This document shows, piece after piece, positions 22,583 to 29,689 of a stretch of 59,960 bases of DNA. The position numbers were made by a program, and so were the translations under genes. Position 1 is the first letter of the stretch. Each line of letters opens with the position of its first letter. The DNA comes from Alistipes sp. (GTDB lineage: Bacteria; Bacteroidota; Bacteroidia; Bacteroidales; Rikenellaceae): the NCBI GenBank assembly GCA_017408825.1, contig JAFQTX010000015.1:1-59960 (forward strand), given 5' to 3'. Below the pieces are notes generated by a model. It was not told the DNA's origin, searched no databases, and worked only from the letters and a program-made list of their open reading frames with translations.

Positions 22583-24625
22583 ATGAGTAAAGAGTATAAG
22601 CGTTATCTTATAACATCGGCACTACCCTATGCCAACGGACCTGTTCATATCGGCCACTTGGCAGGTGTTTATGTGCCTTCAGATATCTATACCCGCTATC
22701 TGCGCCTCAAGGGCTACGACGTTATCTCGGTATGTGGTAGCGATGAGCACGGCGTGCCCATCACAATCAAGGCCCGCAAGGAGGGTATCACCCCTCAGCA
22801 GGTAGTAGACCGCTATCACGAAATTATCGAGAAGTCGTTCCGCCGCCTCGGCATGTCGTTCGACATCTACTCACGCACATCATCACCTACCCATCGTGTC
22901 ACAGCATCGGAGTTCTTCCGCAAGCTATACGACGAGGGCAAGTTCATCGAGCAGACATCTATGCAGTACTACGACGAGGAGGCTAAGACATTCCTCGCCG
23001 ACCGCTATATCGTGGGTACGTGTCCTCGTTGCCAGAACGAGAAGGCATATGGCGACCAGTGCGAGAAGTGTGGTTCGACACTCTCACCCGATGAGCTTAT
23101 CAACCCCAAGAGCGCAGTATCAGGTGCTGTTCCCGTAAAGCGTGAGACAAAGCATTGGTATCTGCCTCTCGACAAGTATGAGGGATTCCTACGTGAGTGG
23201 ATCTTGGAGGGTCACAAGGAGTGGAAATCGAATGTATATGGTCAGTGCAAGAGCTGGCTCGACCTCGGCCTTCAGCCACGTGCCGTAAGCCGTGACCTCG
23301 ACTGGGGTATTCCTGTGCCTGTGGAGGGTGCAGATGGCAAGGTGCTATACGTATGGTTCGACGCACCTATCGGCTATATCTCTGCTACTAAGGACCTTAC
23401 ACCCGACTGGGAGAAATATTGGAAGAGCGAGGATACCAAGATGGTACACTTCATCGGCAAGGATAACATCGTGTTCCACTGCATCGTATTCCCATCAATG
23501 CTTAAGGCTCACGGCGACTACATCCTTCCTGAGAACGTGCCTGCAAACGAGTTCCTTAACCTCGAGGGTGACAAGATATCTACATCGCAGAATTGGGCTG
23601 TATGGCTCCACGAGTATCTCGATGAGTTCCCAGGCAAGGAGGATGTGCTACGCTACGTACTCTGCGCCAACGCCCCAGAGACCAAGGATAACGACTTTAC
23701 GTGGAAGGACTTCCAAGCACGCAACAACTCGGAGCTTGTGGCCGTATTGGGCAACTTCGTAAATCGTGCCTTGGTGCTTACCAAGAAGTATTACAACGGT
23801 GTGATACCTGAGCGTGGCGAGCTTACGGAGTATGACGAGGCCACTATCGAGGAGCTTCAGAAGATTAAGGCATCGTTGGAGCGTAACATCGAGCACTACC
23901 ACTTCCGTGAGGCCCTGAAAGATGCTATGGCATACTCACGCATCGGCAACAAGTATCTCGCCGACACAGAGCCTTGGAAGGTGGTTAAGACAGATCCTGA
24001 GCGTGTCAAGACAATACTCAACATCGCACTCCAGATCACAGCAAATACAGCTATCGCCATCGAGCCATTCATGCCATTCTCGGCTGAGAAGATGCTCAAG
24101 ATGCTCGCCGTAGATAAGTTTGGCTGGGAGCAGCTCGGCTCTATGGAGCTATTGGCTGCAGGCCACACCATTGGCGAGGCACAGCTACTCTTCGAGAAGA
24201 TCGAGGATGACGTGATCCAGGCACAGCTCGACAAGCTCGAGGCATCACGCAAGGCTAAACTTGCTGCTGAGGCCGCACAGAATGTCACAGAGCAGAAGGC
24301 CGAAGTTACGTTCGATGATTTCCAGAAGATGGACATCCGAGTATCTACAATTCTTGAGGCCGAGAAGGTGGCAAAGACCAAGAAGCTCCTGAAGCTCACC
24401 ATCGACACTGGCATCGACAAGCGCACCATCGTGTCGGGTATCGCCGAGTACTATACTCCTGAGCAGCTCGTAGGCCGCCAGGTACTTGTTCTGGCCAACC
24501 TCGCACCACGTGAGATCAAGGGCATCGAGTCACGAGGTATGATCCTTATGGCCGAGGATGCGCTGGGCCGACTGGTACTCGTTCAACCTGAGGATAAGAC
24601 AATGTCGGGCGCAATGATTGGATAA
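22583..24625 (+). CDS. metG: Methionyl-tRNA synthetase
   Basis: A 680-residue class I synthetase. The HIGH motif is H22-I-G-H25. The zinc knuckle CPRCQ.. CEKCG is in the CP domain. The KMSKS counterpart is KISTS (331-335). An extra C-terminal EMAP/Arc1p-type tRNA-binding domain (about 575-680, [11 protein letters not shown]) explains the length. A linker rich in Ala, Lys and Glu joins it to the core. The gene is divergent from uvrD with its own promoter. Confidence 0.96.
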
Positions 24626-24713
24626 CACAAACAACTGATTATTAATGGGTTAGCCTTATTACGACAACCTAAAAATACAAAAAATAACAACCAACTTAAA
24701 CTTTAGCTTTATT

Positions 24714-25727
24714 ATGGAAAACATTAAATGGGGAGAGCTTGGTTTTGCTTACTACAAGACAGCTTTCAATGTTCGCTACCACTATGCCAACGGCCAGTGG
24801 AGCCAGATGCAGGTGACTGACGATGAGTACATCAAGATGCATATGTCGGCAGCTTGCTTGCACTATGGTTTGGAGATCTTCGAGGGTCTTAAGGCTTTCC
24901 GTGGTGTTGATGGTAAGGTACGTTTGTTCCGTCCAGATGAGAACGCTAAGCGTATGATCAACTCAGCAAACCGCCTTTGCTTGCCAGCTCCTACTGTTGA
25001 GCAGTTCGTTGAGGGCTGTATGGAGTGCGTTCGCCGCAATATGGACTTCGTTCCTCCCTATGAGACTGGTGCATCGCTCTACTTGCGTCCTACCCTTCTC
25101 GGTACTAAGACCTGCCTTGGTGTACGTGCTGTAGATGAGGCCGACCTCATCATCTTCTGCGCTCCAGTAGGTCCATACTTCAAGGGCGGCATGAACGCTA
25201 TCAAGGCTCTTATTATGCGTGACCAGGACCGTGCTGCTCCACGTGGAACAGGTGACGTTAAGGTAGGTGGTAACTACGCTTCATCTATCTGGTCATTGGA
25301 GTCGGCTCACCAGAAGGGCTTCTCTAACGTTCTCTACCTCGATGCTGCTACCCACAGCAAGGTTGAGGAGTTTGGTGCAGCTAACTTCTTCGGTATCAAG
25401 GATGGCAAGTACATCACTCCTAAGTCATCATCAATCCTTCCTTCAATCACCAACAAGAGCCTTCGTCAGATTGCTGCTGACCTCGGCCTTGTAGTTGAGG
25501 AGCGTGATATCCCTGTTGAGGAGCTCGCAACATTCGAAGAGGCAGGTGCTTGCGGTACTGCTGCAGTTATCTCGCCTATCGGCGCATTGTATGACCTTGA
25601 CAACAACGTTACATATGACTTTGGTATGAAGGTTGGCGAGACTTGCAAGAAGATGTACGACCGCCTTCAGGGCATCCAGTATGGTCGCTGCGAGGATACA
25701 CACAACTGGAATATCGTTGTTGAGTAA
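24714..25727 (+). CDS. ilvE: Branched-chain amino-acid aminotransferase
   Basis: A 337-residue fold-type IV PLP enzyme for the last step of Val, Leu and Ile synthesis. The Schiff-base lysine is K183 in DVKVGGNYASS. The EVEEFGAANFF-like motif appears as KVEEFGAANFF, and GTAAVISPIG binds the cofactor phosphate. Codon choice (many gct, ctt and gtt) differs slightly from the flanking genes and suggests strong expression. The coding sequence contains a 16-base parS-like palindrome at 25235-25250 across codons for the RAAPRGTG segment (AAPRGT). Confidence 0.95.
   Translation: MENIKWGELGFAYYKTAFNVRYHYANGQWSQMQVTDDEYIKMHMSAACLHYGLEIFEGLKAFRGVDGKVRLFRPDENAKRMINSANRLCLPAPTVEQFVEGCMECVRRNMDFVPPYETGASLYLRPTLLGTKTCLGVRAVDEADLIIFCAPVGPYFKGGMNAIKALIMRDQDRAAPRGTGDVKVGGNYASSIWSLESAHQKGFSNVLYLDAATHSKVEEFGAANFFGIKDGKYITPKSSSILPSITNKSLRQIAADLGLVVEERDIPVEELATFEEAGACGTAAVISPIGALYDLDNNVTYDFGMKVGETCKKMYDRLQGIQYGRCEDTHNWNIVVE
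25235..25250. promoter_or_regulatory. parS-like ParB site inside ilvE
   Basis: TGCTCCACGTGGAACA matches the known parS form TGTTCCACGTGGAACA at 15 of 16 positions. The same 16-mer recurs exactly at 25995-26010. Here it lies in coding sequence, where a terminator hairpin would make no sense. No parA/parB is in the window. Confidence 0.6.
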
Positions 25728-25760
25728 TTTCTGGCGATAAAGGGTCATCTGTGACCTAAC

Positions 25761-25819
25761 AATCCAATGGGCGAATGGGAAATACGTCAAGTATATCCCA
25801 TCCGCCCTTTCTCTTTATC
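25761..25819 (-). repeat. Dispersed hairpin repeat, copy A
   Basis: The reverse complement of this 59-base stretch matches 40422-40480 with only a few differences. It is itself a hairpin: a TGGGCGAATGGGA-type arm and a TCCCATCCGCCC-type arm around AATACGTCAAGTATA. Copy A lies just after ilvE and may act as its terminator. Confidence 0.65.
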
Positions 25820-25855
25820 GGAGCTATATCTAATCCTTTATGACAAGAAATTGAA

Positions 25856-25970
25856 TTAGGGAGATTAGTGAGCTTTAGGAATTTAGGGAGTTTTTTTTTG
25901 GGGGGGGTAATTGAGATCAGTTATAGACCCGTAGAACTCCTTGTCTATATAACTTCCCTAACCTCTCTAA
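25856..25970. repeat. Long imperfect stem with TTAGGGAG-type arms
   Basis: TTAGGGAGATTAG (25856-25868) pairs with CTAACCTCTCTAA (25958-25970), 11 of 13 positions. A second TTTAGGGAG lies at 25882-25890, followed by T9G8. The arms resemble those of the hairpin at 34893-34970. Confidence 0.5.
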
Positions 25971-25991
25971 CCACACACTCTCCAAAAAAAG

Positions 25992-26013
25992 GAGTGCTCC
26001 ACGTGGAACACTC
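25992..26013 (-). terminator. mnmG terminator overlapping a second parS-like site
   Basis: A 22-base palindrome (20 of 22 symmetric) contains TGCTCCACGTGGAACA at 25995-26010, identical to the site in ilvE. Read on the minus strand it is GAGTGTTCC-ACGT-GGAGCACTC followed by C and seven T, a good intrinsic terminator 28 bases past the mnmG stop. Both readings are possible and are not exclusive. Confidence 0.65.
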
Positions 26014-26040
26014 TAAAATATTAATATAAATAAGTTGGTC

Positions 26041-27924
26041 CTATCTGCCAAACTTAACGAGCAACACATTAATATCTGCTGGCGACACACCCGGAATACG
26101 TGATGCGTGGCCGATAGTTGTTGGACGAATACGGCTAAGTTTTTGGCGAGCCTCAATAGTCAATGACTGCATTGAGTCGTAATCGAAGTTCTCTGGAATG
26201 GCGATACTCTCAAGGCGATGCATCTTCTCAGCGAAATATCGCTCACGCTCGACATAGCCTCGATACTTAATTTGTATCTCAGCCTGCTCAACAACCTCAT
26301 TCGAAAGGTCATTTTCGGCAATGAAACGCTTTAGCTTAGGCGACACCTCCGCAAGAGTTTTTATGGTCACATTACTACGAAGAACTATGTCATAGAGCTT
26401 TTTTCCCTGCGATAAAGGCTCCTCGCCAAGCGAAATTAAATAGCTGTCAATTTCGCCTTTTTTGACGGACGACTGACGGAGCATCGAAATAAGCGATTCT
26501 ACGGCCGCATTTTTTTTGAGCAAATTTTGATACTTCCCCTCGCCTACAAGACCAATTTTATAGCCAAGCGGGGTGAGTCGAGCATCGGCATTATCCTGTC
26601 TAAGGAGAATGCGATACTCCGCCCTCGAGGTAAACATACGGTAAGGCTCATCGACACCCTTAGTCACAAGGTCGTCGATCAAAACGCCGATATATGCCTC
26701 ATCACGACCAAGAACCACAGGCTCCTCACCACGTAACGAGCGGTGAGCATTGATACCTGCCAATAGGCCCTGGGCTGCGGCCTCCTCATATCCCGTAGTG
26801 CCATTCACCTGACCAGCGAAGTAGAGACCATCGACGAGCTTTGTCTCAAGTGTGTGGCGCAGCTGCGTAGGTGGGAAGTAGTCATACTCTATGGCATACC
26901 CCGGACGGTAGACGTGGACATCCTCGAAGCCTACAATGTTACGTAGTGCCTCCATCTGCACCTCAAAGGGTAGCGACGATGAGAAGCCATTAAGATAGTA
27001 CTCATTGGTCGAGCGCCCCTCAGGCTCTAAGAATAGCTGATGCTGTTGCTTATCTGCAAACGTGCGTAGCTTATCCTCGATGCTGGGACAGTAGCGAGGG
27101 CCAATGCCCGAGATTGTTCCGTTAAACAATGGCGAACGGTCAAAGCCTGTACGCAGGATGTCGTGAACACGCTCCGACGTATAGACCATAAAGCAGGGTA
27201 GTTGCTCCCTAACAGGCTCAGTATCTGGGTCATACGAAAACTTCGAGGGTTCTGCATCACCCTCCTGAACCTCGAGTGCATCGAAGTTGATAGTGCGAGC
27301 ATCGAGCCTAACAGGAGTACCTGTCTTCATCCTTCCAGACTCAAAGCCGAGCCTAAGGAGCGATGCCGTAACACCGTGCGACGCCTGATCGCCGGCTCTT
27401 CCTCCCTCGGCACTCGCCTCTCCACAGTGCATAACACCCTCGAGGAATGTTCCTGCTGTGAGCACCACACGGCTACACTCTATCTCCACGCCCATTCGTG
27501 TTTTTACGCCCCTTACACGGGGTTTCTCACCCGAATGGTCGAAGAGTATCTCCACGACAGAATCTTGCCACAGATAGAGCCTATGAGTGTTTTCAAGTCT
27601 CCTACGCCACAGCTGCGAGAATAGTTGCTTGTCGCACTGCGCACGTGGGCTCCACATAGCGGCACCCTTAGAACGATTGAGCATACGGAACTGAATAGCC
27701 GAGCGGTCGGTAATACGTCCCATTATACCACCAAGAGCATCTATCTCCCTGACAATCTGACCCTTAGCCACACCACCCACGGCAGGATTACACGACATTG
27801 AGGCTATCTTCTCCATGTCGATGGTAATGAGTAGGGTGCGTGAGCCAAGGCGTGCGGCAGCCGAGGCAGCCTCACACCCAGCGTGGCCAGCACCTATAAC
27901 CACTATGTCGTACTGGAGTTTCAT
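26041..27924 (-). CDS. mnmG: tRNA uridine-34 carboxymethylaminomethyl modification enzyme (GidA)
   Basis: A 627-residue FAD protein that works with MnmE to modify U34 in the wobble position of tRNA. The dinucleotide-binding motif is GAGHAGCEAA (from about 12). The GidA signatures SMSCNPAVGGVAKGQ and the C-terminal IPGVSPADINVLL are present. Length is standard. Its start overlaps the ybeY stop by 4 bases (ATGA). It is the last gene of the pheS-to-mnmG minus-strand run. Confidence 0.96.
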   Translation of the reverse strand: MKLQYDIVVIGAGHAGCEAASAAARLGSRTLLITIDMEKIASMSCNPAVGGVAKGQIVREIDALGGIMGRITDRSAIQFRMLNRSKGAAMWSPRAQCDKQLFSQLWRRRLENTHRLYLWQDSVVEILFDHSGEKPRVRGVKTRMGVEIECSRVVLTAGTFLEGVMHCGEASAEGGRAGDQASHGVTASLLRLGFESGRMKTGTPVRLDARTINFDALEVQEGDAEPSKFSYDPDTEPVREQLPCFMVYTSERVHDILRTGFDRSPLFNGTISGIGPRYCPSIEDKLRTFADKQQHQLFLEPEGRSTNEYYLNGFSSSLPFEVQMEALRNIVGFEDVHVYRPGYAIEYDYFPPTQLRHTLETKLVDGLYFAGQVNGTTGYEEAAAQGLLAGINAHRSLRGEEPVVLGRDEAYIGVLIDDLVTKGVDEPYRMFTSRAEYRILLRQDNADARLTPLGYKIGLVGEGKYQNLLKKNAAVESLISMLRQSSVKKGEIDSYLISLGEEPLSQGKKLYDIVLRSNVTIKTLAEVSPKLKRFIAENDLSNEVVEQAEIQIKYRGYVERERYFAEKMHRLESIAIPENFDYDSMQSLTIEARQKLSRIRPTTIGHASRIPGVSPADINVLLVKFGR

Positions 27925-28558: not shown

Positions 28559-29689
28559 CTATTTCTTAAAGCAGTCCATCACATTCATCGGAGTGCTGGA
28601 CTTTGTATTGATAATCATAAACTGCATATAGGCGCTCATCGTGCCGTTATGGTCTACGCCGATGCCTATCACGCCAATCTGCTCGTTACGCTTCACAACA
28701 TCACCCTCCGAGACCTCAATCTGGCTTAGGTGCGTATATACCGAGACATAGTGTCCGTGGGCAATCATCACCGTAGAGTGGTTTGTATTATCTGTCACGA
28801 TGCGTACAACCTTACCCTCATAGATACTACGCACAGCATCGCCCTTCTTACCACTTATCTTGACCATATTGGTCTGCATCTTGTGCGTTTTACCGCCCGC
28901 TACGGGGAGATTTAAGGCCTTTGTTGATGAGCTGAAGCTCTTACCCACCTTATTGTTCTCGGTGAGCTTACGGAGCTCCTTAGTGGCCTTTTCGAGCTCC
29001 TCCTTCTGGCGTTTCTGCTCGGCGAGGGCCTTGCGCTCCTCGTCCGAGAGCTTCTCGTATTCACGCTTCGCCTGCTCACGGTCACGCTCCAGATCTCGCT
29101 TCTCTGCCTCGAGCGACATACCCACAGAGTCGAGCTCTGCACGACGCCCATCGAGCTCCTCACGCATTGCCACCAGCATACTACCCTGCTCTCGGATAGA
29201 CTCCGCAAGCTCGGCACGCTGCTCCGCCACGTGGCGAATGTTCACCATACGATGAGCCGCCTCCGAGACACTTGTCGAGGAGAAGAGATAGGTCGTTTCG
29301 TTGCTTGACTTATAGTTTCGATGTGCTACACGCACAGCCTCGGCATAAATCTTCTTGTTATTCTCAAGGGCCTCAGCCAACGAGTCTATCTGGCGATTAA
29401 GCTGCTTGGCTTCAACATCAAGCATATCACGTTTACGCTCAGTCTCAGCTATATACGATGTACGAAGGTTCATCTGCTCGGTGAGCTTCTCTACACGCTC
29501 CGTGGCACTACCCTTCTGCTTCTTAAGCTCCTTGACCTGCTGCTCTACCCTCTTAAGGTCTCGCCTACACTGCTCTACACGCTGCTTCTGCTGTGCCACA
29601 GTGACACGCTGTGCCGAGGCCTCGCCAGCACACAACATCAGGGCCACAGCAACAAGTAGTGAGAGTATGAATTTAGAGTATTGCAACAT
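28559..29689 (-). CDS. EnvC-like coiled-coil protein with degenerate M23 domain
   Basis: A 376-residue periplasmic protein. The signal peptide ends near ASAQ (27). A long coiled coil (about 28-260) rich in E, K, R and Q follows. A C-terminal LytM fold (about 275-376) has HGHYVSVYTHLSQI. The first zinc motif (HxxxD) and the final HxH are not seen: the matching segments read AVRSIYEGKV and SAYMQFMII. The domain is therefore probably catalytically dead and acts as an amidase activator during cell division, as EnvC and NlpD do. That role is inferred from the family. It lies 2 bases after the TPR gene. Confidence 0.85.
   Translation of the reverse strand: MLQYSKFILSLLVAVALMLCAGEASAQRVTVAQQKQRVEQCRRDLKRVEQQVKELKKQKGSATERVEKLTEQMNLRTSYIAETERKRDMLDVEAKQLNRQIDSLAEALENNKKIYAEAVRVAHRNYKSSNETTYLFSSTSVSEAAHRMVNIRHVAEQRAELAESIREQGSMLVAMREELDGRRAELDSVGMSLEAEKRDLERDREQAKREYEKLSDEERKALAEQKRQKEELEKATKELRKLTENNKVGKSFSSSTKALNLPVAGGKTHKMQTNMVKISGKKGDAVRSIYEGKVVRIVTDNTNHSTVMIAHGHYVSVYTHLSQIEVSEGDVVKRNEQIGVIGIGVDHNGTMSAYMQFMIINTKSSTPMNVMDCFKK

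Follow-up and report, generated by a model that had tools for sequence, protein, structure and literature searches.

Two identical 16-base palindromes in a genome of Alistipes sp., one inside ilvE and the other between ilvE and mnmG, are very probably parS sites of a chromosomal ParABS system, and as such would make up a small, origin-proximal centromere cluster. The analysis starts from a window of 59,960 nucleotides (GenBank assembly GCA_017408825.1, contig JAFQTX010000015.1), the whole stretch of DNA that was read, whose relevant features are collected in Table 1. The case for parS is carried by the codons of ilvE, which spell the site with little silent variation across relatives, by the occurrence of a parS-type ParB in the genome, by the position of the sites relative to the GC skew and by a recurrent association of such sites with mnmG in the Bacteroidota.

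Table 1. Features of the 59,960-nucleotide window that bear on the predicted parS sites
Feature	Position	Strand	Remarks
ilvE, branched-chain amino acid aminotransferase	24714-25727	+	NF009897 and TIGR01123, above cut-off
parS copy 1 (predicted)	25235-25250		inside ilvE; exact TGCTCCACGTGGAACA
Hairpin resembling a terminator, with T tract, for mnmG	25982-26013	-	contains parS copy 2
parS copy 2 (predicted)	25995-26010		ilvE-mnmG intergenic; exact TGCTCCACGTGGAACA
mnmG (gidA)	26041-27924	-	TIGR00136, 826 bits, above cut-off; convergent with ilvE
Cumulative G-C skew minimum	35099		rough origin pointer; the curve changes little up to about 44 kb

The sequence-only reading that drew attention to the pair had placed two identical 16-mers 760 bases apart and put them one base from a known parS form; both copies are indeed exact and so spaced, and each matches the 16-bp consensus TGTTCCACGTGGAACA with a single mismatch (the chromosomal consensus is quoted as TGTTTCACGTGAAACA in the accessible part of PMC7383237). 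The names ilvE and mnmG, which had been given from the letters alone, hold up against the NCBIfam models. At up to three mismatches the window contains no further place resembling TGCTCCACGTGGAACA; shuffled windows yield on average 0.38 matches at this threshold, and none of 100 shuffles reaches four. The draft genome comprises 1.89 Mb in 44 contigs and is 83% complete; in it the degenerate parS pattern TGNTNCACGTGNANCA occurs at two places, both of them these copies (one in the backward control). Six places lie within three mismatches of TGTTCCACGTGGAACA (four in the backward control), of which the two copies stand at one mismatch and the other four all at three. The proposed search of the whole genome thus found the sites not scattered but confined, in the draft, to these two places, and as the genome is a draft more sites may exist.

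Copy 1 begins with the last base of codon 174 and takes in codons 175 to 179, (GC)T GCT CCA CGT GGA ACA; the six codons encode Ala-Ala-Pro-Arg-Gly-Thr. The codon usage of this ilvE yields the motif spelling with a probability of about 0.0009, so that one genome on its own is suggestive and it is the comparison with relatives that decides. The closest named loci bear Alistipes or Rikenellaceae titles and come from metagenome genomes, mostly of the ruminant gut. The ilvE set comprised 110 loci (L034-L143, some sharing a genome); three partial sequences were dropped and 12 identical ones merged to leave 95, of which 74 encode APRGTG, with L131 and L137 excluded as outside the clade. The exact 16-mer is present in 64 of these 74 non-identical APRGTG-type coding sequences; among the other ten, three end in ACG, one has CGG for CGT and six have lost the site. 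Codon diversity was scored at columns in which at least 90% of the sequences share one amino acid and degeneracy is four or more, and the site codons occupy the six lowest places among 105 such columns in the 74 sequences. When 90%-identity representatives are used, five site codons are still the lowest, and codon 179 comes seventh of 101, after Ser121 and the other five. On a tree from whose construction the site codons were left out, each site column changed three to five times, against a median of 20 for the 77 fourfold columns of the same 74 sequences; the site columns are the six slowest-changing of the 77, and 100,000 random draws of six columns produced no set that low. The orthologue check suggested by the sequence-only reading therefore came out in its favour, with conservation at synonymous positions going far beyond codon constraint: in the ilvE copy selection acts on the DNA itself, over and above what the protein demands. 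All six silent positions of the copy match parS. The sole base off the consensus TGTTCCACGTGGAACA occupies the second position of the Ala175 codon, and it stays because correcting it to T would exchange this alanine for valine.

Conservation at silent sites alone does not name the selecting factor, and the ilvE codons could in principle be frozen for mRNA structure, for translation or for some other DNA-binding protein, the likeness to parS being incidental. Both flanking codons, too, fall below the median in variation (a diversity of 0.36 against 0.58 for codon 173, and 10 tree changes against 20 for codon 180). We nevertheless consider such a constraint very improbable: conservation peaks over the 16-mer itself, the match to parS extends to every silently changeable position, the motif in ilvE is confined, among the loci examined, to the Alistipes clade in which ilvE adjoins the mnmG-linked parS, and a parS-type ParB is encoded in the genome.

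The ilvE copy is dispensable, since it has been lost from six of the 74 coding sequences, is one base off in four and is exact inside ilvE in only 21 of the 37 genus genomes, our own included (coordinates compared by eye). The losses correspond to three inferred events in a presence/absence count that allowed one mismatch, and the six coding sequences concerned keep their intergenic sites at no more than one mismatch. A site at this threshold lies inside ilvE or within 0.4 kb of it in 35 of the 37 genus genomes (again compared by eye); in the remaining two, G018 and G036, ilvE was not found, and the G018 site adjoins mnmG. A second clade of the genus, whose IlvE is about 53-57% identical, uses other codons here and has its sites next to ilvE rather than inside it. 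A separate observation is that copies within one genome share an off-consensus base, coding and non-coding copies alike: there are three TGTTCCTCGTGGAACA in G005 (C74) and two TGTTCCACGGGGAACA in G027 (C11), and CACGGG stands in both G033 sites (C51). It is conceivable, if unlikely, that such copies evolve in concert, relatedness or chance being the alternatives. A change in the ParB helix-turn-helix behind the CACGGG variants was considered and rejected, as the G027 protein equals that of its near relative G024 up to GHAKAIAG in the stretch compared, and the G033 and G015 proteins differ there by one I/L exchange just after GHAK; the helix residues of the G027 and G033 ParB appear unremarkable.

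The intergenic copy has a second aspect, which had been recognised from the letters alone and is confirmed by folding. On the mnmG strand the copy-2 stem (26013-25992, with a 4-base loop) is followed by CTTTTTTTGG, and the hairpin with copy 2 as its core by CTTTTTTT; the RNA folds at -15.2 kcal/mol with a z of -3.8. A terminator scan of positions 24600-26200 gave one result, a number no higher than in shuffles (mean 1.4). The result was copy 2 alone, which bears out the earlier argument that a terminator cannot explain the copy in a coding frame. With its stem, loop and T tract, copy 2 is akin to an intrinsic (Rho-independent) terminator; what sets the sites apart from one is that copy 1 is intragenic and that about half of the related intergenic copies have no stem extension. 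The latter figure derives from 111 distinct contexts, taken as copies downstream of the ilvE start and outside the +521 position, of which 52 have no extension of the stem and 38 lengthen it by three pairs or more; 33 show a tract of T or A, by a criterion that misses tracts absorbed into the stem (L065, L067). It is hence highly improbable that the intergenic copy is an mnmG terminator and nothing else, with the ilvE copy a chance resemblance: the hairpin with its T tract and the 38 extended contexts would fit such an account, whereas the 52 contexts devoid of extension and the frozen silent sites in ilvE do not, and on these two grounds it was rejected as a full explanation. That copy 2 doubles as a terminator here and in near relatives is plausible, and this role leaves the existence of the motif unexplained.

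If the two palindromes are parS sites, a cognate ParB is expected, and the sequence-only reading had named the lack of a parB gene as evidence against itself. The genome in fact encodes parB (G000:C9:5375-5896, above cut-off), the one ParB-family match it contains, next to a gene for a ParA-like ATPase. The best NCBIfam matches of this neighbour are PrgP and ParA_partition, both below cut-off, and no NCBIfam ParA model reaches its cut-off. Among 61 genomes parB was found in 56, including all 34 that are at least 90% complete; four of the five in which it was not found are Alistipes drafts with an exact ilvE site (G009, G011, G017 and G025, completeness 78-87%). The best solved relatives of our ParB are 1vz0 (Spo0J of Thermus) and 6t1f (ParB of Caulobacter). 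Following the Caulobacter residue numbering, which we transferred onto the alignment, our ParB matches Caulobacter in having R at 173 and G at 201, two of the specificity residues whose roles are described in the accessible part of PMC7383237, and two other contacts differ, S172 and R204 each being K. The R and G mark the protein as parS-type rather than Noc-type. Our ParB does score more bits on the Noc model TIGR04285 than on parB_part. We attach next to no probability to the sites serving a Noc-like nucleoid-occlusion protein instead of ParB: the TIGR04285 match falls below the Noc cut-off (222.6 versus 315 bits), the only ParB-family match in the genome carries parS-type residues, and the sites have G as their second base and lie together rather than spread over the chromosome. 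An NBS (TATTTCCCGGGAAATA) has A at base 2 and a CCCGGG centre, and the sites have G and CACGTG. SMC gave only weak matches and none above cut-off in seven Alistipes genomes (G000, G001, G007, G019, G020, G023 and G030), and SMC loading is accordingly not claimed. A protein encoded near the parS sites at 28559-29689 on the minus strand gives weak SMC and peptidoglycan hydrolase matches, all below cut-off, and may be a cell-wall hydrolase with a coiled coil or the activator of one.

That the window lies near the origin, as the pair had been taken to indicate, is supported indirectly by GC skew. The skew minimum of the window is about 9 kb from the sites, and in three relatives the minima, calculated over stretches of 200-400 kb, fall 7.7 kb (G020 and G023) and 7.9 kb (G024, on a shallow curve) from the nearest site; in a fourth, G015, the minimum is 29.5 kb from the sites but 2.5 kb from a contig end, the contig stopping short of a clear minimum. 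As an origin marker dnaA had to be discarded, since in all 12 genomes checked it does not share a contig with ilvE; provided that the contigs are sound, the distances to the contig ends separate it from the sites by no less than about 199 kb in G020 and about 221 kb in G023. DnaA boxes of the form TTWTNCACA number two in the window, against 3.5 expected, and form no cluster. In twelve gut bacteria, according to the part of PMC10197239 that was accessible, parS clusters and skew mark the origin and dnaA does not always do so.

The neighbourhood of mnmG emerges as the common location of these sites. Within the Alistipes clade 57 of 68 named loci reach mnmG, ilvE and mnmG are convergent in all 57, and in 47 of them a site at no more than one mismatch lies between the two genes. 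The degenerate parS pattern matches in 17 of 24 genomes of the order and not in the other seven; the surroundings were checked in 16 of the 17, leaving out G054, whose only match is far from the consensus, and a third match in G048, and at least one site lies within 1.5 kb of mnmG in 16 of 16. Counted by locus, mnmG is within 1.5 kb in 11 of 12 (L005-L016, where L009 is the off-consensus TGCTGCACGTGCAGCA) and likewise in six of seven (L267-L273, where L273 is the off-consensus TGTTTCACGTGTAACA), three of the latter set re-sampling genomes of the former. At the level of the phylum an exact TGTTYCACGTGRAACA is found in 58 of 80 genomes and not in 22, our own among these; of 30 loci from 30 of the 58 genomes, 27 have mnmG within 1.5 kb of the fetched site. 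Sixteen of the 30 belong to one family (f40), and outside it mnmG lies by the site in 11 of 14. Three phylum loci (L239, L240 and L244) carry a consensus parS with no mnmG within reach. In others (L245, L246, L249-L252, L257 and L261-L264) parS pairs with a spacing of about 1.9 kb seem to flank mnmG at both ends, judging from this distance and from the mnmG adjoining the fetched site. Twelve more distant named ilvE loci (L131-L135 and L137-L143, under the titles Tidjanibacter, Prevotella or Bacteroidales) lack both a site in ilvE and, within the flank examined, mnmG. A site at no more than one mismatch occurs in six of these twelve genomes and in none of the other six; one was fetched from each, a further G155 match on another contig being left out, and all six lie within 1.5 kb of mnmG. 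Since the sites fetched from these distant genomes adjoin mnmG and none is in ilvE, the intergenic copy seems to be the older one and that in ilvE a later acquisition.

These observations would fit into a scheme familiar from ParABS systems. ParB may bind the palindromes, load there and spread over ilvE and mnmG, and ParA would move the ParB complex, so that the freshly replicated origin is the first part to separate. The copy on the mnmG side represents the Alistipes form of an association between parS and mnmG seen in most of the Bacteroidota loci examined, and in our species it may end mnmG transcripts as well. Where ilvE and mnmG face each other, an extra copy is written into ilvE by silent codon choice and has been kept by selection in one large clade; it would have been gained once ilvE had become a neighbour of mnmG. 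A gain at this place fits the statement, in the accessible part of the review PMC7333895, that extra parS sites are tolerated solely in the region around the native ones. A much broader proposition, that the Bacteroidota centromere is anchored to mnmG throughout the phylum and recruits neighbouring coding sites by silent mutation, the ParB complex coupling ilvE and mnmG expression to segregation, strikes us as unlikely.

Like chromosomal parS sites elsewhere, ours are 16-bp palindromes one base from the consensus, two of them together, with a skew minimum nearby and parB in the genome; they differ in that one base is kept off consensus by an alanine of IlvE and in that parAB and dnaA are on other contigs of the draft. 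Sites within protein-coding genes have a precedent in Pseudomonas aeruginosa, where, by the portion of PMC4368675 available, parS sites in such genes were altered with the protein unchanged; in Alistipes, by comparison with that portion, silent-site conservation has been measured across a species clade and the gene is ilvE beside mnmG. In the partial literature at hand, consisting of titles and the starts of abstracts, we found no report of a parS in ilvE or of an mnmG-linked parS in Bacteroidota, and none combining parS sites, ilvE and the chromosome; a related query listed one paper, on Shigella VirB. This coverage does not include Livny 2007, reportedly the main parS survey, and an earlier description is therefore possible. 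Both parS and intragenic parS are already known, and what the ilvE case appears to add is unusually clear selection on silent sites.

Overall, ilvE of Alistipes is a clear instance of a metabolic gene that shares its sequence with a chromosome-segregation signal, and the compromise between the two is visible: the single off-consensus base is the very one that the protein holds in place. The association of parS with mnmG could help to locate the origin region in Bacteroidota drafts, dnaA having proved no use for this in the Alistipes genomes checked. The gains and losses of the ilvE copy, finally, provide a natural series for asking why parS multiplies near the origin.
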